Shown here piece after piece: positions 12,543 to 58,642 of a stretch of DNA of 64,000 nt (positions are counted from its first letter, which is position 1; every line of letters begins with the position of its first letter). The notes under the pieces are model-generated. The model was not told the DNA's origin, made no database searches, and was given only the letters and a program-made list of their open reading frames with translations. The DNA comes from a virus. A program made the translations under genes and the position numbers. The stretch spans positions 298,103-362,102 of IMG/VR virus record IMGVR_UViG_3300045970_000794, one strand, 5' to 3'.

Positions 12543-13460
12543 TTAAATTTTATTATTTCTTACTGAATCTTTTATTTCGATATAAATGGTTGATGCCATT
12601 GGATATTTCTTCGTGACATCAAGTTTGATTTGCTCAATAGTATCTTCAATATCATAAGCTACTTCATCATCTTCAATATCCAATGATAATAATAACATGA
12701 ACTGGTTTTTACCTATGAACATTGTTTGAATCTTATTGATATGTTTTACCATATGATATTGCCCGATAATATGTTTAATATCATTTCTTATTTCCCTCGG
12801 GGCACTCTCACCAATAATTAACTTTCTGAGCTCATTAGAGAGCGTATAAGCGATTATCATCAGAATTAGACCTACAACTATGGAACCGATTGCATCGAAC
12901 ACTGGAGAGACTGTAACAGCTAAAATTGTGGTGATGGCTACAACGATTAATCCGAATAATGCAACCATATCTTCTAGGATAATAACCAATAGGTTTGTAT
13001 CACTAGTATCAATGATTTTACGGAAGAATGAATCCTTACTGATTGTTTTGAATTGATTATAAGCAACTCTGAATGAGTTGAACTCTAAAATGATACCAAT
13101 ACCAAGAACGATGAAGGACCAATAAACATGATGTATTGGTTCTGGCTTTGATAGTTTTTCAATTCCCTCATAAAGCGAATAGAATCCACCAACAAAGAAT
13201 AATAGTATTGCTACCATGAATCCCCAGAAATATTCTTCCTTACCATAACCGAATGAATGTAGTTCGGTTGGAGCTTTAGATGTTCTTTTATTACCAATCA
13301 ACAAGAACACTTGATTGCAACAATCAGCTGTTGAGTGAATGGCTTCGGCCAACATAGCAGTACTAGTAGTAACGACAGCTACAACGAATTTTATGGCTGC
13401 GATGATTGCATTACCAATAAGTGCGACCATAACGGCCTTCATTGAATTAGGTTTAGACAT
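12543..13460 (-). CDS. cation diffusion facilitator (CDF) transporter
   Basis: At 305 aa it has the CDF fold: six hydrophobic segments and a C-terminal cytoplasmic domain. TM2 carries the metal motif HSTADCCNQ (HxxxD, residues ~42-50) and TM5 has LEDMVALFGL. The HS-AD-NQ and ED-A-GL patterns are those of the SLC30A9-like branch. Such proteins exchange Zn, Mn or Fe for protons across the inner membrane. A metal transporter is unusual phage cargo. Its last codons overlap the 103-aa gene by 8 nt, so it is part of the operon rather than an insertion. The substrate cannot be read from sequence. Confidence 0.88.
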   Translation of the reverse strand: MSKPNSMKAVMVALIGNAIIAAIKFVVAVVTTSTAMLAEAIHSTADCCNQVFLLIGNKRTSKAPTELHSFGYGKEEYFWGFMVAILLFFVGGFYSLYEGIEKLSKPEPIHHVYWSFIVLGIGIILEFNSFRVAYNQFKTISKDSFFRKIIDTSDTNLLVIILEDMVALFGLIVVAITTILAVTVSPVFDAIGSIVVGLILMIIAYTLSNELRKLIIGESAPREIRNDIKHIIGQYHMVKHINKIQTMFIGKNQFMLLLSLDIEDDEVAYDIEDTIEQIKLDVTKKYPMASTIYIEIKDSVRNNKI

Positions 13461-15486: not shown

Positions 15487-15511
15487 TATAACAGCAATAA
15501 GTAAGTTAGTG
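15487..15511 (-). other. degenerate attC-like site 0
   Basis: On the plus strand TATAAC and GTTAGTG flank AGCAATAAGTA. The GTTA box lies 5 bp from the stop of the 87-aa gene. It is weaker than the other sites and marks the left end of the array. Confidence 0.35.
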
Positions 15512-15516
15512 AGCAT

Positions 15517-15780
15517 TTAAGCATCACTATATTTAATAAACATAGTATCCATGAATTTTTTAACATCATTTAATTCACCTTGATAACATCTTCCCATACC
15601 ACAAATCGTATAAATTGGAAATTCGTTATCTTTTACATTTTCAAATATATTCAAGTTATGCTCTATTACAATCTTATAATCCCTATATGTTTCAATTTCT
15701 TCAATTTTCCCTTTAACAAAACGCTCACTAACATCGTGTATAGCACATTGCTGTTCATTTTTCAAATTATCTTTTTCCAT
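15517..15780 (-). CDS. cassette protein (87 aa), unknown
   Basis: Soluble protein with YRDYKIVIEHNLNIFENV and a CGMGRC motif. It lies between sites 0 and 1, so it is probably the last cassette. Function unknown. Confidence 0.62.
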   Translation of the reverse strand: MEKDNLKNEQQCAIHDVSERFVKGKIEEIETYRDYKIVIEHNLNIFENVKDNEFPIYTICGMGRCYQGELNDVKKFMDTMFIKYSDA

Positions 15781-15815
15781 ATTATTAAATTTAGTATTTC
15801 AAATTAAGTTCTCGT

Positions 15816-15846
15816 TGGCAACGTGCTATACACGCAGCCGTTATGT
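15816..15846 (-). other. attC-like site 1 (short form)
   Basis: 31 bp: TGGCAAC, 17 bp holding a CGTG/CACG stem, then GTTATGT on the plus strand. It has the same length and layout as site 4. The long complementary arm seen at sites 2, 5 and 6 is missing. Confidence 0.55.
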
Positions 15847-15851
15847 TTAAT

Positions 15852-16016
15852 TTAATTTTTTAACCGCAATTTATCTCCCACCCATTCAAGTTCTATCATT
15901 TCATCATGTTTTCCCTTGTTAATAATATCCAGTGCTGTATCAACATCAGATAAATTGCTAACTACTTTCACCATTTCATCAAGAGTCATACATTTTAACA
16001 TTTCAAGTTTTTCCAT
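15852..16016 (-). CDS. cassette protein (54 aa), unknown
   Basis: A 54-codon frame (MEKLEMLKCMTLDEMVKVVS... ending WVGDKLRLKN), all-helical. It is the only frame between sites 1 and 2. Function unknown. Confidence 0.6.
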   Translation of the reverse strand: MEKLEMLKCMTLDEMVKVVSNLSDVDTALDIINKGKHDEMIELEWVGDKLRLKN

Positions 16017-16044
16017 AAGTTTATCTATTAAAAATTAAACTAAA

Positions 16045-16163
16045 ACATAACAACAAATATAAGTTATTATTTTCAGTGTTCCAAATTAAATTATCTGTTT
16101 ATTTATACGTTTGTTTTTTAATTAAGTTTCAGTTATAACAACTTATATTTGCAACCGTTAGCA
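16045..16163 (-). other. attC-like site 2 (long form)
   Basis: Plus strand: ACATAAC (16045-16051), then CAAATATAAGTT (16054-16065) which pairs perfectly with AACTTATATTTG (16140-16151), then GTTAGCA (16157-16163). The 119-bp length and a stem with a large variable loop are like Vibrio-type attC repeats. No ORF lies inside. Confidence 0.72.
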
Positions 16164-16193
16164 GCTATTAAAACAGTACGCTCGTTCCTCGCC

Positions 16194-16214
16194 TGCTAAC
16201 ATCGAATAAGAAAA
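16194..16214 (-). other. attC-like site 3, first arm
   Basis: TGCTAAC followed by CGAATAAGAAAA, which pairs with TTTTCTTATTCG at 16437-16448. The box is the exact reverse complement of the GTTAGCA of site 2, 30 bp away. The two arms of this site enclose a gene. Confidence 0.6.
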
Positions 16215-16224
16215 ATAAAAATTA

Positions 16225-16419
16225 CTACTGTTGTGGTTCATCGAGTGGTGGTGGTTTTAAATACCATTTTCCGTTATCATCAACAAAAAAACTTTCAGGC
16301 TTCATCTGTTCATATCCCCAAGAACAAAAACCTTTGCAGTTTTTATTTTCGCATACATTATTAAATTCTCCCCATTCCTGTCCACACAATACACATATAA
16401 GTTTTTTTTCGTGTTCCAT
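16225..16419 (-). CDS. cassette protein with Cys cluster (64 aa)
   Basis: CVLCGQEWGEF followed by CENKNCKGFC: a four-to-five-Cys zinc-ribbon-like unit, then a Pro-rich tail (YLKPPPLDEPQQ). It lies between the two arms of site 3, unlike neighbouring cassettes. Function unknown. Confidence 0.62.
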   Translation of the reverse strand: MEHEKKLICVLCGQEWGEFNNVCENKNCKGFCSWGYEQMKPESFFVDDNGKWYLKPPPLDEPQQ

Positions 16420-16436
16420 ATACCGTAATTTTTACA

Positions 16437-16460
16437 TTTTCTTATTCGCAGCCGTTAGGC
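16437..16460 (-). other. attC-like site 3, second arm
   Basis: TTTTCTTATTCG, then CAGCC and GTTAGGC. On the minus strand the box reads GCCTAAC, a perfect RYYYAAC, and supplies the TAA stop of the 71-aa gene. Confidence 0.65.
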
Positions 16461-16670
16461 GTAATTAAAAGTAATCCTAACTTTAGCCTTAAATTCTCTA
16501 TATCCGTTTTCGTTTTCAATAGTCATTTCTTGTAATATGTCCTGAATGAATATCAGTGCATCATCTGTTATTTCAGTTCCTTTAGGGTAAGTCTTTGAAT
16601 AACTACGCCTAACACCACCTATATTTAATTGCTGGCTATCTGCGTTATTAAAGGTCTGTTCGTTGTTCAT
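16455..16670 (-). CDS. cassette protein (71 aa), unknown
   Basis: MNNEQTFNNADSQQLNIGGV... ending FKAKVRITFNYA. Its TAA stop is part of the attC box, typical for cassette genes. Predicted beta-rich C-terminus. Function unknown. Confidence 0.62.
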   Translation of the reverse strand: MNNEQTFNNADSQQLNIGGVRRSYSKTYPKGTEITDDALIFIQDILQEMTIENENGYREFKAKVRITFNYA

Positions 16671-16706
16671 AATTTCGTGTAATTTGATAGTTTAGTATTT
16701 CAAAAT

Positions 16707-16737
16707 CAGCAACTAAACATAGCTGTAACCGTTAGCA
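16707..16737 (-). other. attC-like site 4 (short form)
   Basis: 31 bp: CAGCAAC, 17 bp, GTTAGCA. A CAGC/GCTG pairing is possible. Closely related to site 9. Confidence 0.55.
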
Positions 16738-16741
16738 ACAA

Positions 16742-16951
16742 TTAGTGCTGCCCATACCTCAAATGAATGTTATCATAATCTGTATCGTGATAAGCACCGT
16801 TCTCTTGTTTATGTTTCTTTATACATTGATATAAGTATATTTCGGTTAATCCTACCAAAGAACAATCACCTTTATCCCAACTATTATACAGTTGTTTAAT
16901 CTCATCATCGTTCAAATCTAATAAACTTTCTATTGTGTTCTTTTCATCCAT
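16742..16951 (-). CDS. cassette protein (69 aa), unknown
   Basis: Start at 16951 (MDEKNTIESLLDLNDDEIKQ). The frame stays open upstream only because it reads through the attC-like site 5. Acidic, helical protein ending HLRYGQH. Function unknown. Confidence 0.65.
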   Translation of the reverse strand: MDEKNTIESLLDLNDDEIKQLYNSWDKGDCSLVGLTEIYLYQCIKKHKQENGAYHDTDYDNIHLRYGQH

Positions 16952-16963
16952 AAATCTAACTGT

Positions 16964-17055
16964 TGCTAACAAGCAATATATGTAATTGCCTATTAAGGTT
17001 TGTAAAATTTTTAAATTTTGTGCAAGGCAACTACATATATTGCCAACCGTTAGGT
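16964..17055 (-). other. attC-like site 5 (best preserved)
   Basis: 92 bp. Plus strand TGCTAAC (16964-16970) and GTTAGGT (17049-17055) bracket two arms that match over 17 of 18 bp (GCAATATATGTAATTGCC against GGCAACTACATATATTGC). On the minus strand the R'' box is ACCTAAC, 4 bp after the stop of the 97-aa gene. This site alone meets the attC layout: boxes, imperfect palindrome and an AT-rich loop. Confidence 0.78.
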
Positions 17056-17059
17056 TCAA

Positions 17060-17353
17060 TTAAATTATTGTTTTGATTTTATTTAGATAATCAATATATC
17101 GAGAAGATGAACCGCTACCATACAATTTTTCAGCTTTCTCAGACATACCATATAAAGATATTAAAAAATAATCACCATATTCAGATGCTTTGTTCCTAAA
17201 TCCCCACATTTCATGTTGTCTTATCTGAAATTCATCTTCAGTGAGGTTATCCATATCAATAAATAATTTATCGTATGCTTCCCAAAATTGTGTCATCACA
17301 ATTCTAACTTCTTCTTTTAATTCTTGTGAAGTTGTTTGTTCTCTTATATTCAT
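17060..17353 (-). CDS. cassette protein (97 aa), unknown
   Basis: Helical protein (SQELKEEVRIVMTQFWEAYD ... RYIDYLNKIKTI) of unknown function, lying alone between sites 5 and 6. Confidence 0.66.
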   Translation of the reverse strand: MNIREQTTSQELKEEVRIVMTQFWEAYDKLFIDMDNLTEDEFQIRQHEMWGFRNKASEYGDYFLISLYGMSEKAEKLYGSGSSSRYIDYLNKIKTII

Positions 17354-17386
17354 ATTTTTTAATTTGTAAAATAATTATTTAACTAA

Positions 17387-17440
17387 ACCTAACAAATGAT
17401 AAACAACATTAAAACGATTGTTTATCATCGGACGTTATGG
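17387..17440 (-). other. attC-like site 6
   Basis: 54 bp. ACCTAAC (17387-17393), ATGATAAACAA paired perfectly with TTGTTTATCAT around an 11-nt loop, then GTTATGG (17434-17440). Both boxes and the stem are clear. It is followed after 15 bp by site 7. Confidence 0.75.
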
Positions 17441-17455
17441 CTCATTAAAACGAAG

Positions 17456-17476
17456 CCATAACAGCAAATATAACCA
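17456..17476 (-). other. attC-like site 7, first arm
   Basis: CCATAAC, then GCAAATATAACCA, the perfect complement of 17930-17942. As in site 3, a gene lies between the arms. Confidence 0.6.
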
Positions 17477-17537
17477 ATGCTGTCAGTGCTTCGATTTAAG
17501 TTTTGCGATTAAAAGTTTTTAAAAATTGCCATCGCAC

Positions 17538-17813
17538 TTAAAAAGTTTCAAGTATTTTTCCTGTTGGTTCAACAAAATCAATTACACTTGTTTCACCATT
17601 TTCTTTTTCTACACCTATTTGCCCAGTTAACCTAGAATTAATAGTTTCAAATTTATGCAATTCGCATCTAAAAGAAAATGTATCTTTTAACTTGGTTTGC
17701 AACTCAACATTCCAACCGTCATTGGATTGGTCAAACAAATGGTTCAATGCAAATTCTTTAACAATCAATTTAACCATTTTCATTCTTAATGATTTTTTAC
17801 TTTTTACTTTCAT
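17538..17813 (-). CDS. cassette protein (91 aa), unknown
   Basis: Basic N-terminus (MKVKSKKSLRMKMVKLIVKE), then a beta-rich part (FSFRCELHKFETINSRLTGQ). Located between the two arms of site 7. Function unknown. The flanking 17814-17920 holds no further frame. Confidence 0.6.
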   Translation of the reverse strand: MKVKSKKSLRMKMVKLIVKEFALNHLFDQSNDGWNVELQTKLKDTFSFRCELHKFETINSRLTGQIGVEKENGETSVIDFVEPTGKILETF

Positions 17814-17920
17814 ACTTTTAATTTTAAATTTATATAAATATAATGTTTTTATTTAAGATAATCAATATTTTCTCACGCTATTTTTAAAAACTTTTTTGCG
17901 GTGTTTCAATTAAGCATTAG

Positions 17921-17953
17921 TGTTAGCACTGGTTATATTTGCAGCCGTTATGG
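17921..17953 (-). other. attC-like site 7, second arm
   Basis: TGGTTATATTTGC (17930-17942), CAGCC, GTTATGG (17947-17953). The next ORF's stop codon starts at the adjacent base. Confidence 0.62.
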
Positions 17954-18196
17954 TTAATTACCAATTCCAGCTTTGCATTTTGGACATTTAATATAACTAT
18001 CATGATTGTATCCGCAAAATGAACACTTACGTAATGGTAACTCAACCATAACATTAGATAAATCCAATTTTTTGATGTCATTAATTAAGCACAAAACTTC
18101 GTCTGCCCTTATATTATACGTTAGTGCATGGATATAATTATTTGCTTCGCTATTTATTTTTTCGTTATCTTTATAGTCACGAAGTTTTTTTTCCAA
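17954..18196 (-). CDS. cassette protein with zinc ribbon (80 aa)
   Basis: Helical N-terminal part and a C-terminal zinc ribbon (CSFCGYNHDSYIKCPKCKAG). Function unknown; stop directly abuts the site 7 box. Confidence 0.66.
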   Translation of the reverse strand: MEKKLRDYKDNEKINSEANNYIHALTYNIRADEVLCLINDIKKLDLSNVMVELPLRKCSFCGYNHDSYIKCPKCKAGIGN

Positions 18197-18244
18197 TTCA
18201 TTAATTATTTAGTCTTTTTTCATATAATTCATTTTAAACTGTAT

Positions 18245-18264
18245 TTATCTGAGTACCGTTAGTG
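18245..18264 (-). other. degenerate attC-like site 8
   Basis: TACC then GTTAGTG (18258-18264). The minus-strand box CACTAAC holds the TAA stop of the 94-aa gene. No complementary arm is visible. Confidence 0.4.
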
Positions 18265-18543
18265 GCAATTTTCTATGAACAGTCTAAACTTCTTACCATC
18301 TTTGGAAATAAATTCGATTGAGTTAGTATTTTGTTGTAAATTATCGTCTAACTCTTTTTGCTGTTGCATTTCTATTATAATTTTTCCGTAATCATGAATT
18401 GTCGCACATTCTTGTGGCTCATCGTTATCGAATTTAAACATAAGCCTTCCAGTTTGGTTAGCAAGTTTAAAACTGCCACTAACATCAGCTATATTCAATG
18501 CCGAGTTCTGTGGCGTAATTGAGTTTTGTTCTTCGTTTTTCAT
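18259..18543 (-). CDS. cassette protein (94 aa), unknown
   Basis: A GSFKLANQTGRLMFKFDNDE segment, then a helix (KIIIEMQQQKELDDNLQQ) and a final strand (EFISKDGKKFRLFIE). Stop embedded in the site 8 box. Function unknown. Confidence 0.62.
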   Translation of the reverse strand: MKNEEQNSITPQNSALNIADVSGSFKLANQTGRLMFKFDNDEPQECATIHDYGKIIIEMQQQKELDDNLQQNTNSIEFISKDGKKFRLFIENCH

Positions 18544-18576
18544 TTTATCTGTTTATTAAATTTTGAAATACAAAAT

Positions 18577-18606
18577 TGGCACTAAATATAGCTGTAAACA
18601 TTATAC
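18577..18606 (-). other. attC-like site 9 (diverged short form)
   Basis: Shares most of its 30 bp with site 4 (ACTAAA-ATAGCTGTAA), with ATTATAC in place of GTTANNN. The methyltransferase stop lies inside it. The box has lost its G, so it may be inactive. Confidence 0.45.
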
Positions 18607-19575
18607 CCCATTTAAGAGCGACCCGAAAATGTGAGCGATTATATCAACAGTCCATCCGTTTCCGAGCATTTTTTTTGATTGGCTTTCTGAAACAATATCA
18701 GTAAAGTAATTTTCGGGAACTGTTTGTAATCTGCAATACTCTTTCAAAGTGTAATATCTAAATGGTAGCTTGTTTTTAAAAGCGTCCTTATGCCTACCTA
18801 TTGGCATTGTAGTTAAAACATTGTCTTTTTCAACAGTAGTTAGGCAGTTGCTTTTATTAGTGTTAGTTGCTCTTACTTCCAAGCATTGCGTAATCGGTAC
18901 ATCTTTGTTGTAGTCATCTCTTACACCTCGCTCATTCAATCTTCTACCTAAAATAGTAGCTTTATTCAACCTTCGCCCTCTTATTGCACTTGGGTTAATA
19001 AAATCGTCAGTTTCAAGTATATCAATAAGGTTTATTGCTTTGTCGGTTGGCTGTGTAATTTCAAAGTTTGCCCAATACAAACGAACCCTATTTTGTGCAG
19101 TAACTAAGCTACTGTTAATCGCAACAGGTTCAACCCCTAAATACTCGCTAATTACTTGCTCATATTCTTTTTTCATTACTACATTTTCAAGTAACCAGTA
19201 TTTAGGTTTCAATTCTTTAACCAATCTAACAAACTCAAAAAATAGTTTGCTTCGAGGGTCATCAAAGTTTAACTGTTTGCCACTAAAACTAAATCCTTGG
19301 CATGGGCTACCTCCAATCAATAAATCAACTTTAGGTAAGTCTTTTGCAAATACTTTAGTTACATCGCCTAATTGTATTGTTTTCGGGTAGTTGGTTTGTG
19401 TTACTTTAATAGCGTGTTTATCAATCTCACTCGCAAAGTAGTTATCATATTCAATCCCAACTCTATTAAGTGCTATTTGTCCACAACTCATTCCATCAAA
19501 AAGAGAAAGAACAGAAGAAAAACGGGGCATAACACCGTGTATAGGTAATGTGGGGTTTTGTGGTAATTCAATCAT
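18601..19575 (-). CDS. DNA cytosine-5 methyltransferase
   Basis: At 324 aa it has the C5-methyltransferase motifs in order: motif I SLFDGMSCGQIALNRVG (SAM binding, ~24-40), motif IV GGSPCQGFSFSGK with the catalytic Pro-Cys, motif VI ENVV, motif VIII QNRVRLYW and motif X MLGNGWTVDIIAHI at the end. The overall form is DNMT3-like, as in many phage solitary enzymes. The target sequence cannot be read. No restriction endonuclease is nearby, so a solitary methylase that protects phage DNA from host restriction is likely. It is the largest cassette, between sites 9 and 10. Confidence 0.93.
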   Translation of the reverse strand: MIELPQNPTLPIHGVMPRFSSVLSLFDGMSCGQIALNRVGIEYDNYFASEIDKHAIKVTQTNYPKTIQLGDVTKVFAKDLPKVDLLIGGSPCQGFSFSGKQLNFDDPRSKLFFEFVRLVKELKPKYWLLENVVMKKEYEQVISEYLGVEPVAINSSLVTAQNRVRLYWANFEITQPTDKAINLIDILETDDFINPSAIRGRRLNKATILGRRLNERGVRDDYNKDVPITQCLEVRATNTNKSNCLTTVEKDNVLTTMPIGRHKDAFKNKLPFRYYTLKEYCRLQTVPENYFTDIVSESQSKKMLGNGWTVDIIAHIFGSLLNGV

Positions 19576-19609
19576 TTGTTCTCGTATTTAAGTTATTACT
19601 ATTTTGACA

Positions 19610-19656
19610 GGGTAGTGCTTCGTATTCCCACACTACCCATACACGAAACGTTATAA
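19610..19656 (-). other. attC-like site 10, right end of array
   Basis: GGGTAGTG/CACTACCC stem (19610-19617 and 19631-19638), then GTTATAA (19650-19656). Beyond it the genes return to the overlapping operon pattern. Confidence 0.45.
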
Positions 19657-19664
19657 GTAATTTA

Positions 19665-19931
19665 CTAAATGTTTGGATGATTAGTAAAACATTTATTGCA
19701 TTGTTGATTATTTCTACTTATTTGAATTAATTCACCACCACAATCACATTTATTAAACATACTTATAACAGTAGGTATATTCAAATTTTTAACTCGTTCT
19801 TGTTCGTATTTAATACCTTCATCAAATGCTTCCAAAAACCAACCAAACCATTCGTCTTTAGCCATTTCACCACGCATATCTTTTGTTGGTAAATCGTCAA
19901 TTATCTTATTAATTATTTTATTTTTATCCAT
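19665..19931 (-). CDS. zinc-ribbon protein (88 aa)
   Basis: Start at 19931 (MDKNKIINK) is supported by a rare, good Shine-Dalgarno (GGAGG) just upstream. An earlier ATG at 19946 would include it as coding. C-terminal ribbon CDCGG ... CNKC. Function unknown. Confidence 0.66.
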   Translation of the reverse strand: MDKNKIINKIIDDLPTKDMRGEMAKDEWFGWFLEAFDEGIKYEQERVKNLNIPTVISMFNKCDCGGELIQISRNNQQCNKCFTNHPNI

Positions 19932-20083: not shown

Positions 20084-20434
20084 TTAAATATCACCTTTAA
20101 GCCACAATTTATAATCATCTTCTGTCATTCCCAAATATGCTGATAAACTTAAAGTACTATCAGAATTATGCCATTCATCAATCTTATCATCAATGGTATC
20201 ACCAATGGTTTTAACATATTTAATTTTTAGATTCATTTCAATGGTGTGTTCTACCTGAGTAATCGCCCAGTCAATTTTATCAACATCCATTTGGTCAACA
20301 GCATCATTAATTGGTAAATCCAAATAATAATTAGAATACATTCTTTTAAACATTAAATGCTGCTCTTCAGTGCATTTAGCTAGAAGGTCTTTTAGAATAG
20401 TCTTAGCAGCTTTTATTAAAGTTTCGTTTTTCAT
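20084..20434 (-). CDS. hypothetical protein (116 aa)
   Basis: All-helical (IKAAKTILKDLLAKCTEEQH ... DYKLWLKGDI); a DQMDVDKIDWAITQVEHTIE segment is reminiscent of small phage proteins. One nt from its downstream neighbour. Function unknown. Confidence 0.67.
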   Translation of the reverse strand: MKNETLIKAAKTILKDLLAKCTEEQHLMFKRMYSNYYLDLPINDAVDQMDVDKIDWAITQVEHTIEMNLKIKYVKTIGDTIDDKIDEWHNSDSTLSLSAYLGMTEDDYKLWLKGDI

Positions 20435-37344: not shown

Positions 37345-38439
37345 ATGATAACTAAAACACAAAATTTCATATTAAAAGCAAAGCATATTCATGAAGATAA
37401 GTACGATTATTCATTAGTTGAGTATAATGGTTCTTATTACAAAGTTAGTATAATATGTAAAATACATGGAATATTTAAGCAATCACCAAATAATCATTTA
37501 AATGGGCAAGGCTGTGCTATTTGTGGTCGAATTAAAACACAAGCTAAACAAATGTCTAATGTTAATGATGTTATAGCTAAAGCAAAATATATTCATAAAA
37601 ATAAATATGATTATTCATTAGTTCAATATAAAAATGAAAAAAGTAAAATAAAAATAATATGCCCAACGCATGGTATTTTTGAACAAACACCTGATAATCA
37701 TATTAATAATAAAACTGGGTGTCCAAGTTGTAGTTGTAATAAAAAATTAACACCATTAGAGTATATTACAAAAGTAAATTTAATTCATAAATCCAAATAT
37801 AATTATTTAATTATGAATTATTGTGGTGTGAATAAGAAAATAAAAATAATATGCCCAATTCATGGTGTGTTTGAAATTAAAGCCTCTCACCACGCTAGCG
37901 GTGTTGGTTGCTCTAAATGTTCAAATAAACATAAATATACTACCAATGAATTTATCATTGAGGCTAGTAAAATTCATGGAAGTAAATATAGTTATAAATT
38001 GTCTGAGTATTTAAATGCGAAAACTAAAATAATTATTACTTGTCCAATGCATGGTGATTTCATGCAATCACCAACATCACATTTAAGTGGTAAAGGATGT
38101 CCAACATGTAATGAAAGTAAAGGTGAAAAAGCGATTAGAAATTACTTAAATAAACATAATATTAGCTTTATTCCTCAACATAAATTTAATGATTGTAAAA
38201 ATATTAAACCATTGCCGTTTGATTTCTATCTTCCAGATTATAATACATGCATTGAATACCAAGGTGAACAACATTATAGACCAATTAAACGTTTTGGTGG
38301 TGTTAATGCTCATGAAAAATTAAAAGAAAACGATAACATTAAAAAAGAATACTGCGAATCACACAATATTCTTTTGATTGTCATATCAAATATAAATGAA
38401 GTGATTTATAATTTAAAAAAATTAATCATAAAACCGTAG
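37345..38439 (+). CDS. free-standing homing endonuclease-like protein, four zinc repeats
   Basis: At 364 aa, four tandem repeats of ~65 residues each carry the pattern IHxxKYxY...IICxxHGxFxxxxxxH...GCxxC (DUF723-like zinc modules). The C-terminal ~100 residues (ISFIPQHKFNDC, then PLPFDFYLPDYNTCIEYQGE and QHY) match a PD-(D/E)XK, Vsr/very-short-patch-like nuclease core (candidate Asp, Glu-x-Gln, His). Two relatives lie at 55305 and 57743. Its TAG stop is in the repeated 24-bp segment and it overlaps the DUF3228-like gene end by 14 bp. DNA cleavage at that gene's 3' end is the likely role. Confidence 0.78.
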   Translation: MITKTQNFILKAKHIHEDKYDYSLVEYNGSYYKVSIICKIHGIFKQSPNNHLNGQGCAICGRIKTQAKQMSNVNDVIAKAKYIHKNKYDYSLVQYKNEKSKIKIICPTHGIFEQTPDNHINNKTGCPSCSCNKKLTPLEYITKVNLIHKSKYNYLIMNYCGVNKKIKIICPIHGVFEIKASHHASGVGCSKCSNKHKYTTNEFIIEASKIHGSKYSYKLSEYLNAKTKIIITCPMHGDFMQSPTSHLSGKGCPTCNESKGEKAIRNYLNKHNISFIPQHKFNDCKNIKPLPFDFYLPDYNTCIEYQGEQHYRPIKRFGGVNAHEKLKENDNIKKEYCESHNILLIVISNINEVIYNLKKLIIKP

Positions 38440-52229: not shown

Positions 52230-52745
52230 TTATTTAAAATAAATATCTTTATATAAATCGATAAAATAATTCCCAATATAATAAGCCAAATCTTCACTTT
52301 TTAAATAAAGGGCCGAGGGAACAATCATATCACTAATATTGTAATCAGTGCTATAACAGGAAAACACACCGCTATTTTTATTAAAATAAGCGAAATATTT
52401 CATTTGAGAGTCATTATCCCAATCTGGATACCAGCCTTCATTTAATGCTTCGATAATTATACTTAATTTATAATAAGCAATTAAATGTTTATCTTTAAGC
52501 AATTTTAAGTCAATTGGTATTATATTAAGTTTAATACAAGCATCTTCAAACGAAGTAACACCCAATTTTTCACCAAAAATATATAAATTAGCTTTTATTA
52601 TTTTATTTCGTTCATTTAAATCGCCAACGCCTAAAATATCAAATATTTCATCTGAGTTTTTAATTGATATATAACTGAACTTTTCTTTAATTGTGGTAAT
52701 CCACCCATCAAAAGTTTGGTGTGGATTATAAAAATCTGGTTTCAT
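52230..52745 (-). CDS. DGR variable protein 2 (171 aa)
   Basis: The N-terminal ~95 residues are helical (FDILGVGDLNERNKIIKANL; SFEDACIKLN). Then comes a conserved IIEALNEGWYPDWDNDSQMK, and the variable segment at ~125-145 (SGVFSCYSTDYNISDMIVPS). The last 27 residues (LYLKSEDLAYYIGNYFIDLY, KDIYFK) are shared with variable protein 1. The Gly-Trp and SGVF...LYLKS frame suggests a scaffold holding a diversified binding face, probably a ligand-binding protein. It overlaps the RT by 20 nt. Confidence 0.9.
   Translation of the reverse strand: MKPDFYNPHQTFDGWITTIKEKFSYISIKNSDEIFDILGVGDLNERNKIIKANLYIFGEKLGVTSFEDACIKLNIIPIDLKLLKDKHLIAYYKLSIIIEALNEGWYPDWDNDSQMKYFAYFNKNSGVFSCYSTDYNISDMIVPSALYLKSEDLAYYIGNYFIDLYKDIYFK
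52312..52373 (-). repeat. DGR variable repeat 2 (VR2)
   Basis: 62 bp. Eight differences from the template, each at a template adenine: changed to C, G or T. Two neighbouring codons changed N to S and N to D. The GC-rich CCCTCGGCC end (initiation of mutagenic homing) matches VR1 exactly, and a 14-bp block beyond it (CTTTATTTAAAAAG) is also identical. Confidence 0.92.
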
Positions 52746-53691
52746 TTATATGTTTTTTAAGTAAATGTTTTCCGTTACAATGTTTAATCCAACCATTATA
52801 TGATGCAAATGACTTTTTATTAGGATTATTTTTCATCATCCGAATGAAATTTATTTTAATACCTTTTCGTAATAATATATGGGTATGATAAAATTTATAC
52901 CCAACAAAATCAACACCTCTATCTTTAACTGGAAATATCTGATAATTAGATTTTATTTTTAATAATAGTTTAGATTCAATATACCACTTAATATCACCTA
53001 ATAATTTATGTAATTCACTTTTACTAGATGAGAATATTACCATATCATCAGCATATCTAAAATAATATTTAACTAATTTTTCTTCTTTTAACCAATGGTC
53101 AAAATATGTTAAATATAAATTAGCAAAATACTGACTAGTATAATTACCTATTGGTAGACCATCCGTTGAATCAATAATCTCATCTAATAACCATAATAAA
53201 TCACTATCTTTTATTTTTCGTCTAATTATTGATTTTAGTATATCATGACTAATACTAGGATAAAATTTACTAATATCTAATTTTAAACAATATTCAGTAT
53301 TTTCAATATCTTTTAATGATTTTTTAACCGCATTAGCGGCACCATGTATTCCCCTACCTTTTATGCAACTATAAGTGTTACTAGTAAATATATTTACAAA
53401 TATCGGTTCCAAAATATTCATAATCGCATGATGGATAATTCTATCTGGATAATATGGTAAGGAAAAAATTAAACGTTCTTTACCCTCATTTATAATAAAG
53501 GTTTTATATTTAGATGTTTTAAATGTTTTATTAATTAATGATTCATGTAATCTTAAAATATTTAAATTTCTATCTTTATCAAATGAAATAACATCACATC
53601 TATTTTTCTTACCTTTTCTAGCTTTAGAATCAGCCAATTCTAAATTTTCAATAGATATTATTTTATCATATAAATTATTAAATCGTTTCAT
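52726..53691 (-). CDS. DGR reverse transcriptase
   Basis: 321 aa from ATG at 53691 (MKRFNNLYDKIISIENLELA); a GTG at 53733 extends it by 14 residues. The start MKRxxNLY...ENLELADSKARKGKK is typical of DGR RTs. RT domains in order include LPYYPDRIIHHAIMNI, YCLKLDISKFYPSI (first catalytic Asp), LPIGNYTSQYFANLYL (the (I/L)GxxxSQ signature that separates DGR RTs from group II intron RTs with QGxxxSP), FRYADDMVIFS (YADD active site) and VDFVGYKF. It makes error-prone cDNA from template RNA, misreading adenines, to rewrite the variable repeats. Confidence 0.97.
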   Translation of the reverse strand: MKRFNNLYDKIISIENLELADSKARKGKKNRCDVISFDKDRNLNILRLHESLINKTFKTSKYKTFIINEGKERLIFSLPYYPDRIIHHAIMNILEPIFVNIFTSNTYSCIKGRGIHGAANAVKKSLKDIENTEYCLKLDISKFYPSISHDILKSIIRRKIKDSDLLWLLDEIIDSTDGLPIGNYTSQYFANLYLTYFDHWLKEEKLVKYYFRYADDMVIFSSSKSELHKLLGDIKWYIESKLLLKIKSNYQIFPVKDRGVDFVGYKFYHTHILLRKGIKINFIRMMKNNPNKKSFASYNGWIKHCNGKHLLKKHINETRFL

Positions 53692-53768
53692 CCCTTTGTT
53701 ATTAATAGTTACGGTCTCTAATGATACTAGCACCTATTTAAAATTTAAATTTTTTACCATGTTGGTAA

Positions 53769-55137: not shown

Positions 55138-55308
55138 ATGGAAAAAAATAGGCAGCGGTCACGTAAAAATGATGAAAATAAAACAGATTCAATGACAATT
55201 AGAATTGAACCTAAATTAAAAGAGCAATATTTGAAATTTTGTGAAGATAATGGATATTCATATGGAAAACGGTTGAGATTATTAATTAAAAAAGATTTAG
55301 ATAAATGA
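55138..55308 (+). CDS. ribbon-helix-helix protein (56 aa)
   Basis: 56-codon frame: a basic, disordered start (MEKNRQRSRKNDENKTDS), then MTIRIEPKLKEQYLKFCEDN and GYSYGKRLRLLIKKDL, a MetJ/Arc-type strand followed by two helices. Its TGA overlaps the ATG of the endonuclease (ATGA), so the two are co-expressed. It may regulate the endonuclease gene. Confidence 0.68.
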   Translation: MEKNRQRSRKNDENKTDSMTIRIEPKLKEQYLKFCEDNGYSYGKRLRLLIKKDLDK

Positions 55309-56177
55309 GTAAAAAATTAACAATTGATGAGATAATTAATAAAATTATTGATAATGATTACGATTTTTCACAATCAAATTATGTATCATTAGATAAAAAA
55401 ATAATCGTAATTGATATTGACGGGTTTGAGCATTTAATAAGACCAGATAGTTTATTAGTTGGAAATAAATTAAATATTAAAAGTGTTATCAATAAAGAAA
55501 ATTATTTAATTAAAAAATTTAATAAAATTCACAAAAATTTATTTGATTATTCTAAATTCACATATATAAATTCTGACACTAAAATTGATATCATATGTCA
55601 GACCCACGGTATTTTTAAACAAACTATTAATAATCATTTAAGAGGTAAAGGATGTCCTAAATGTAATGGTAAAAATAAAAGTAATAATGATATTATCAAT
55701 GAGTTTAAATCAACTCATGGTAATAAATACAATTATTCAAAAGTAACATATAGTGGGATTAAAAATAAAGTAATTATTATATGTCCAAAACATGGTGAAT
55801 TTAAACAATCACCAGAGGAACATATTAAAGGTTGTGGATGTCCAATCTGTAAAGAATCTAATGGTGAACGTAAAATTAGGTTATTTTTAGAATCAAATAA
55901 TGTTTCATATATACCACAACATAAATTTAATGATTGTAAAAATATATTAAGTTTACCATTTGACTTCTATTTACCTGATTATAATACATGTATCGAATAT
56001 CAAGGTGAACAGCATTATAGACCTATCGAATATTTTGGTGGTATTAAACAATTCAATAAACAAATAATTAATGATAAAATAAAAATGGAATATTGCCAAA
56101 ACAACAATATTCCATTAATAATGATTAAATATGGTGAAAACATATTTGAAACATTAAAAAAATTTTCTAATATTTAA
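55305..56177 (+). CDS. homing endonuclease-like protein, zinc repeats and PD-(D/E)XK core
   Basis: At 290 aa, two full zinc repeats (FDYSKFTYINSDTKIDIICQ...; YNYSKVTYSGIKNKVIIICP...) follow a ~60-residue N-terminal segment unlike the other two members. The nuclease core is SYIPQHKFNDC, then PFDFYLPDYNTCIEYQGEQH. Its 3' end overlaps the phosphoesterase gene end by 11 bp. Confidence 0.76.
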   Translation: MSKKLTIDEIINKIIDNDYDFSQSNYVSLDKKIIVIDIDGFEHLIRPDSLLVGNKLNIKSVINKENYLIKKFNKIHKNLFDYSKFTYINSDTKIDIICQTHGIFKQTINNHLRGKGCPKCNGKNKSNNDIINEFKSTHGNKYNYSKVTYSGIKNKVIIICPKHGEFKQSPEEHIKGCGCPICKESNGERKIRLFLESNNVSYIPQHKFNDCKNILSLPFDFYLPDYNTCIEYQGEQHYRPIEYFGGIKQFNKQIINDKIKMEYCQNNNIPLIMIKYGENIFETLKKFSNI

Positions 56178-57742: not shown

Positions 57743-58642
57743 TTAATTTTTTTTTAAAAGACTTATTATTTTATTAGGAATCTCATTATATTTAATTATA
57801 ATTAGATTTATATTATTTTTATCACAATATTTTTTTTTAATCACATCATTTAATTTAACATCAATTAAATACTTTTCACCACCAAAAAATTCAATTGGCT
57901 TATAATGTTGAATTCCGTTAAATTCGATGCATGTATTATAATCTGGTAAATAAAAATCAAATGGTAATGGTAGTTTATTTCTACATTCATTAAATTTATG
58001 TTGCGGAATGAATTTGATATTATTTTCCAATAATAGTAGTCGAATATTATTTTCACCTTTACTTTCTTTACAGATTGGACAACCAACACCTTTCAAATGA
58101 TTATGGGGCGTTTGGATAAATTCACCATGTTTAGGGCAAATAATTGTTATTTTGACATGTGATGTTATGTACTTAATTTTAGAATAGTCATATATTTCAC
58201 CATGAATTAACTTAGCTTTTTCAATAAAACACTTATTACCAACCCTTCTATTAAGAAAAGTACATTTTTCACAACGGCTACCTTTTAAATGATTATTTGG
58301 GGTTTGTTCAAACTCACCATGGGTGGGACATATTATTTTAATATTAGTGTTAAAATTAATATAATTAACCAATGAGTAATCATATTCATCACCATGAATT
58401 AACTTAGCTTTTTCGATAAAACACTTATTACCTAATCTCTGTTTTACATAACTACATTTTTTACATCCATCACCACTTAAATGAGCACTAGCCCTTTGAT
58501 TAAATATACCATGCTCTTTGCAAATAATATTCACATAATTTTTACTTTCAGTATAATTAACTAATGAATAATCATATTTTTCACCATGAATTAACTTAGC
58601 TTTTTCTATAAACTTTAAATTTTTTTCTAACATACTTACCAT
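57743..58642 (-). CDS. homing endonuclease-like protein, three zinc repeats
   Basis: At 299 aa, three KAKLIHGxxYDYS ... IICxxHGxFxQ ... HLxGxxCxxC repeats, then FIPQHKFNEC, PLPFDFYLPDYNTCIEFNGI and QHYKPIEFFGGEKY. Closely related to the proteins at 37345 and 55305. It lies in the operon between a HTH fragment and the A1-like gene, 1 nt from the latter. Confidence 0.78.
   Translation of the reverse strand: MVSMLEKNLKFIEKAKLIHGEKYDYSLVNYTESKNYVNIICKEHGIFNQRASAHLSGDGCKKCSYVKQRLGNKCFIEKAKLIHGDEYDYSLVNYINFNTNIKIICPTHGEFEQTPNNHLKGSRCEKCTFLNRRVGNKCFIEKAKLIHGEIYDYSKIKYITSHVKITIICPKHGEFIQTPHNHLKGVGCPICKESKGENNIRLLLLENNIKFIPQHKFNECRNKLPLPFDFYLPDYNTCIEFNGIQHYKPIEFFGGEKYLIDVKLNDVIKKKYCDKNNINLIIIKYNEIPNKIISLLKKN

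Follow-up and report, generated by a model that had tools for sequence, protein, structure and literature searches.

What assembled the run of small single-gene units, all in one orientation and separated by related imperfect palindromes, that lies at 15.5-19.8 kb of a 64,000-nucleotide stretch (hereafter the window) of the virus record IMGVR_UViG_3300045970_000794 from IMG/VR (positions 298,103 to 362,102)? An initial annotation, made from the sequence alone, had read it as an integron-type array of ten units at 15,487-19,656. The units, and the palindromes with their TAAC and GTTA ends, do lie where it placed them, but the array is slightly longer, from a lone R' box at 15,505 to a last R'' box at ~19,766, and consists of ten hairpins (A to J, 15,729-19,653) between eleven small genes, all on the minus strand (Table 1). 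The array is real. Very probably, it is the cassette array of an integron-like recombination system of tailed phages, probably phages infecting Bacteroidota, with a recombinase that lacks the IntI-specific domain.

Anatomy of the array and matching cassette ends

Read on the plus strand, each site comprises TAAC, one or two nucleotides (A, AA, AT, or AC), an arm, a loop, a second arm, four to six nucleotides (often CAGCC or CAACC), and GTTA, with one body between each GTTA and the TAAC of the next site. Several stems are long-range, a whole gene being held inside the loop at sites C and G, and several cassette genes begin within a hairpin loop. All ten sites are imperfect hairpins with the attC-like R''/L''/L'/R' layout. 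The RYYYAAC/GTTRRRY-like boxes initially proposed hold for their TAAC and GTTA ends, but the strict GTTRRRY core fits only two of the ten R' boxes (sites C and E) and, contrary to that core, T occupies position 5 in 42 of 73 units from the related arrays described below. Rfam scans matched nothing relevant.

Two permutation tests separate this organization from chance. The stem scores of arms paired within their own site sum to 188.5, compared with 154 for the best permutation (0 of 100,000 reached the observed value), and individual sites score 14.5-22, whereas the 99th percentile for 824 other TAAC/GTTA pairs in the window is 11.5; folding energy by itself is clearly unusual at sites A, E, and F only. 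The second test concerns the cassette ends: reading inward from GTTA at a body's left end gives the same bases as reading, on the opposite strand, inward from TAAC at its right end (e.g., GTTATGGCT at F with AGCCATAAC at G, and GTTAGTGGCA at H with TGCCACTAAC at I). This end rule holds for all 11 bodies, one of them decayed; the matching run averages 4.9 bases within a body but 0.7 across a single palindrome, whose boxes scarcely match each other beyond TAAC/GTTA, and 0 of 200,000 permutations reached the observed value. Such matching of a body's own ends most likely reflects a former circular state of the units.

Related arrays, an associated recombinase, and probable exchange of bodies and hairpins

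Similar arrays are present in dozens of viral contigs, an abundance biased by the collection of these loci through hairpin motifs; the end rule, the mismatch described below, gene direction, and recombinase linkage played no part in the collection. Huge phages are among the carriers of arrays or site-F copies, including LR756500 (462 kb) and IMG/VR records of 310-465 kb, and a portal gene was found in 12 of 25 tested records, among them that of the window's phage (G000), which encodes portal, major head, and tail fibre genes. The 40-base core of site F recurs letter for letter in at least 119 viral stretches, and its 150 copies in the collected loci lie between many different bodies, preceded by 25 different 6-mers before TAAC and followed by 63 after GTTA. 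Self-complementary flanks occur at none of these 150 sites, as expected for junctions between different cassettes. The pattern YGCA[GR]CCGTTA-N5/6-AATTA, whose loci we retained as a negative control, yielded one true array among 63 viral loci and none among 107 genome loci. Blastn searches returned nothing from plasmids and, from phages, chiefly methyltransferases plus LR756500.

A signature common to these arrays emerged from strict units, selected for a match at positions 1-6 after GTTA with position 7 ignored. The two sides differ at position 7, one having A and the other, as reverse complement, G, in 72 of 73 units and then in 189 of 191; the resulting A.C mismatch is flanked by pairing, at positions 1-6 as required and at 8-10, position 11 pairing in 75%. 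In the window, six of the 11 bodies carry it. Gene direction is equally uniform: instead of following the attC direction, all 11 window genes are antisense, as are 181 genes of the viral loci against two sense (183 genes in the strict-unit set of 191 units).

The array contigs also point to a candidate enzyme. Eight of the 25 contigs of the first set encode a tyrosine recombinase of 266-268 amino acids (aa), which by script adjoins the array in seven. In these sister phages, an attI-like site (ATATATA..A|GTTA, tied to a cassette by the end rule in six contigs) lies beside the integrase gene and is directly followed by the GTTA of the first body, so that the cassette reads GTTA - body - TAAC - hairpin and runs away from the recombinase. 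The spacer asymmetry of the sites agrees with that of Vibrio sites. By eye, an attI-like site can also be recognized elsewhere in G000, although not in the window. There, at G000:C1:15083-17160, a second and smaller antisense array of three cassettes lies beside a 116-aa recombinase remnant, in which about the first 107 residues are fused to the last few and the catalytic domain is gone; the remnant is followed by TTGATATATAGTA|GTTATGTG and the small array. This loss explains why a search of the record with PF00589 came back empty, and implies that the window array, unless a recombinase acts on it in trans, is frozen.

The models that the phage recombinases match best, XerA/XerC/XerD and integron integrase, all score below cut-off (TIGR02249 at 138-159 bits, the NCBIfam cut-off being 265). 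The KxxKDR and HxLRH motifs are separated by 53 residues in these proteins but by 100-101 in IntI1 and a Vibrio IntI, indicating that the IntI-specific domain is missing; IntI4 (2a3v), their second-best match in PDB, aligns in two pieces only. IntI1, IntI4, and the phage enzymes are nevertheless all tyrosine recombinases. In a tree from which one row was omitted (L383, in a wrong reading frame), the phage recombinases form a supported clade (98/90) that includes one Bacteroidota chromosomal protein. Single clades uniting them with IntI (p 0.007) or with Bacteroidota recombinases of ~345-380 aa (p 0.008) were rejected. The latter, annotated as 'site-specific tyrosine recombinase/integron integrase' (for example on a plasmid of Chryseobacterium sp. 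SNU WT5), have 58-59 residues between the two motifs and hence likewise lack the IntI domain. On Bacteroidota chromosomes and the Chryseobacterium plasmid, recombinases of 344-391 aa stand beside arrays of the same type (loci L381, L386, L392, L384, L388, L389, and L403) that follow this end rule and mostly show the A/G mismatch (Chryseobacterium by eye). Unlike in the phages, these recombinases have an N-terminal extension and their 3' end toward the array, and the genes are sense (14 to 1 in chromosomal arrays by script counts). Cellulophaga phage Ingeline and Polaribacter phage Freya have integrases that are sister proteins of similar length, with 37-40% identity to the array recombinases; no array was found at Ingeline.

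A related case comes from Acinetobacter baylyi pJAT2044 (NZ_CP104735, 130-2151 of our locus L407), where tet(X3) has immediately upstream of it the gene of a tyrosine recombinase that shares 46-47% identity with the phage enzymes. The sequences bordering tet(X3) look like degenerate cassette ends of the phage-array type (GTTATGTGCCATTTTT / GTTAGTAGCCGTTTTT), position 7 again being A/G, which hints at an origin of the recombinase-tet(X) pair in a Bacteroidota cassette platform.

Movement of the units is visible in comparisons between arrays. Bodies of 222-516 bp, 88-95% identical and ending exactly at GTTA and TAAC, are common to otherwise unrelated contigs; this applies to other arrays, and the window's own bodies were not found elsewhere. 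In four clean pairs with a shared body (L337/L265, L281/L257, L189/L420, and L425/L520), the right-hand hairpin differs. Crossover only at R' would keep a body and its right hairpin together, so these few cases suggest that the TAAC end of the hairpin probably recombines too. The pair L452/L453 was set aside as an example of swapped hairpins, its right hairpins being related.

A proposed mechanism and its alternatives

The cassette of these phages would be a GTTA, an antisense gene, a TAAC, and a hairpin. A phage tyrosine recombinase of the Xer/IntI superfamily, devoid of the IntI-specific domain, may act on the folded single-stranded hairpin, joining circular cassettes at G|TTA both to array hairpins and to the attI-like site that immediately precedes the recombinase gene, while crossover also at the TAAC end would reshuffle genes and hairpins separately. 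The window array would be either frozen or served by the recombinase of a co-infecting phage or of the host. Its genes are presumably expressed from promoters near the hairpins. Site B contains TTTG-N20-TATATTTG, a Bacteroidota-type promoter consensus, reading toward gene 2. A role of the system may be the carriage of small genes with accessory or anti-host functions, methyltransferases being an example. One gene in another phage's array region (L331:10263-10787, from a relative) codes for an ADP-ribosyltransferase of the polyvalent-protein type (PF18760).

Several observations weigh against this interpretation. The 362-kb record contains no catalytically complete recombinase by PF00589 search, nor did a recombinase turn up in 17 of the 25 first-set contigs, most of which, however, are fragments. 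Within the window, the R' of site I is decayed, and site 0 and the last cassette are without a full hairpin. Exchange between bodies and hairpins relies on the four clean pairs, many of the collected viral loci are fragments or near-duplicates, and no pair of strains of the window's phage was available that differ by a single cassette. Bacteroidota is also only the probable host phylum of this giant phage.

Phage-borne cassettes have precedents. The available parts of Qi et al. 2023 (PMC9892861) report attC clusters without integrase (CALINs) in (virulent) phages, 17 in number, their sites being described without an integrase. One is a small CALIN with two methyltransferase cassettes in Polaribacter phage P12002L, whose P12002L_attC2 served IntI1 as a partner for attI1, with crossover at G|TTRRRY and no recombination detected for the top strand of that site; odd gene directions were treated there as mosaicism. 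By eye, the P12002L region (NC_028924, 29,240-32,800) has the same site type and antisense genes and belongs to the family of the window array, although our strict script did not flag it. The initial annotation noted no established description of a large array in a Bacteroidota phage; this small one had already been published. CALINs, that of P12002L included, resemble the arrays studied here in their folded TAAC/GTTA sites, own-cassette end matching, single-gene units, and DNA methyltransferase cassettes. Those parts of the paper describe neither a recombinase nor an attI-like site, and neither the end mismatch nor the gene reversal, and in what we could consult of the open-licence literature we found no description of the recombinase-array association, the reversed genes, or the body/hairpin exchange. 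The strict A.C mismatch, the antisense genes, and the near-identical bodies with different hairpins appear to be new signatures.

Could the window nevertheless hold an ordinary CALIN whose cassettes, of the known class, a canonical IntI had drawn from host integrons, the neighbouring phage recombinase being an unrelated integrase? The superintegron of Vibrio, represented by our control, V. anguillarum phage p16 (MK672802), has similarly asymmetric spacers (TAACAA... and ...GGGCGTTA) and follows the end rule as well. Its cassette ends match for 5-7 bases after GTTA and stop after at most seven, with the position-7 mismatch not seen and genes in the attC direction, whereas the phage arrays match for six bases, then the A.C mismatch, then 3-4 more, with genes running against attC; counts of 189 of 191 and 181 to 2 speak against such a source. 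Class 1 IntI did recombine one P12002L site in E. coli (PMC9892861), and the ordinary integrases of Ingeline and Freya are sisters of the array recombinases; on the other side, these recombinases adjoin the array in seven of eight contigs, with an attI-like junction, a pattern derived from the site-F hairpin is absent from 396 Bacteroidota genomes, and IntegronFinder 2.0 recorded almost no complete integrons in Bacteroidetes (PMC9024848). A search of G000 for IntI, as the initial annotation proposed, found no integrase combining PF00589 with the IntI-specific domain. We consider the ordinary-CALIN explanation unlikely: the integron-type mechanism initially proposed is borne out by the end rule, the hairpins, the exact-ended shared bodies, and the recombinase and attI-like site of the sister phages, but membership in the known integron class is not supported, given the missing IntI domain, the reversed genes, and the extended end match with its fixed mismatch. 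That the palindromes are mobile hairpins (like miniature inverted-repeat transposable elements or repetitive extragenic palindromes) inserted between ordinary phage genes would account for identical hairpins beside different genes (325 same-hairpin pairs, only six with the same body), but leaves unexplained both the unit-specific matching ends of every gene unit and the sharp-ended bodies in unrelated phages, and is very improbable. We give least credence of all to a role of the palindromes in a phage operon as transcription terminators or regulatory hairpins. The palindromes do lie between genes, and six hairpins carry TTG-N18-22-TANNTTTG toward the gene, compared with 0.66 expected, yet terminators need neither TAAC/GTTA ends, nor matching across genes, nor loops that hold genes (sites C and G). 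A promoter in every hairpin was ruled out, only a minority carrying one.

Returning to the integron-like system with its own recombinase, we lean slightly towards regarding it as a separate integron class, one whose recombinase never had or has lost the IntI domain and which would be common in Bacteroidota phages and chromosomes but missed by software. Its phage enzyme would work both hairpin ends, such that genes form one deck and hairpins, some of them with promoters, another, each shuffled independently, and this might be why phages keep the genes in reverse orientation. Integrons are defined by IntI; judging from these observations, a second cassette economy may operate alongside them in phages and their likely host phylum, distinguished by another recombinase, by gene reversal, and by a signature simple enough for diagnosis, and standard integron searches would miss it. 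Two questions become testable: whether folded-site recombination needs the IntI domain, and whether phages assemble accessory genes by site-specific cassette capture.

Features of the array and neighbouring genes

Table 1. Elements of the cassette array in window coordinates.
Element	Position	Strand	Remarks
Site 0, leftmost R' (GTTAGTGAGC)	15505..15514	+	Pairs with R'' of site A; preceding hairpin missing or decayed; attI motif seen beside integrases absent here
Gene 1, 87 aa	15517..15780	-	Start codon in site A loop
Site A, hairpin TAAC...GTTA	15729..15843	+	17-bp arms, 94%; folding z -2.8
Gene 2, 54 aa	15852..16016	-	
Site B, hairpin	16048..16160	+	Contains TTTG-N20-TATATTTG reading toward gene 2
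Site C	16197..16457	+	Arms CGAATAAGAAAA / TTTTCTTATTCG, 208 nt apart, gene 3 in loop
Gene 3, 64 aa	16225..16419	-	
Gene 4, 71 aa	16455..16670	-	Start in site D loop
Site D, hairpin	16610..16734	+	
Gene 5, 69 aa	16742..16951	-	
Site E, hairpin	16967..17052	+	19-bp arms, 95%; folding z -4.6
Gene 6, 97 aa	17060..17353	-	
Site F, 48-nt hairpin	17390..17437	+	Folding z -4.2; first 40 bases widespread in viruses
Site G	17459..17950	+	18-bp arms, 94%, enclosing gene 7; nested second inverted repeat 17511-17529 / 17877-17895
Gene 7, 91 aa	17538..17813	-	
Gene 8, 80 aa	17954..18196	-	Zinc-ribbon-like CxxC motifs; Pfam matches all below cut-off
Site H, hairpin	18049..18261	+	Weaker stem
Gene 9, 94 aa	18259..18543	-	Stop codon within R' box of site H
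Site I	18480..18603	+	R' decayed to ATTA
Gene 10, 324 aa	18601..19575	-	C5-cytosine DNA methyltransferase (PF00145, E 6.2e-41)
Site J, hairpin	19530..19653	+	
Gene 11, 93 aa	19665..19946	-	
R'' of last cassette (CTTATAAC)	19760..19769	+	No complete hairpin after it

Flanking genes gave no relatives for window 20,084-20,434. On the other side of the array, a gene resembling cation-efflux (cation diffusion facilitator, CDF) transporters (12,543-13,460) has 56% identical relatives in two viral contigs, both without arrays. Farther away, a 335-aa reverse-transcriptase-like open reading frame containing FRYADDMV lies at 52,726-53,733. Three related genes with repeated zinc-binding-like Cys motifs (37,345-38,439, 55,305-56,177, and 57,743-58,642) share a C-terminal block around LPFDFYLPDYNTCIE and look endonuclease-like by eye.

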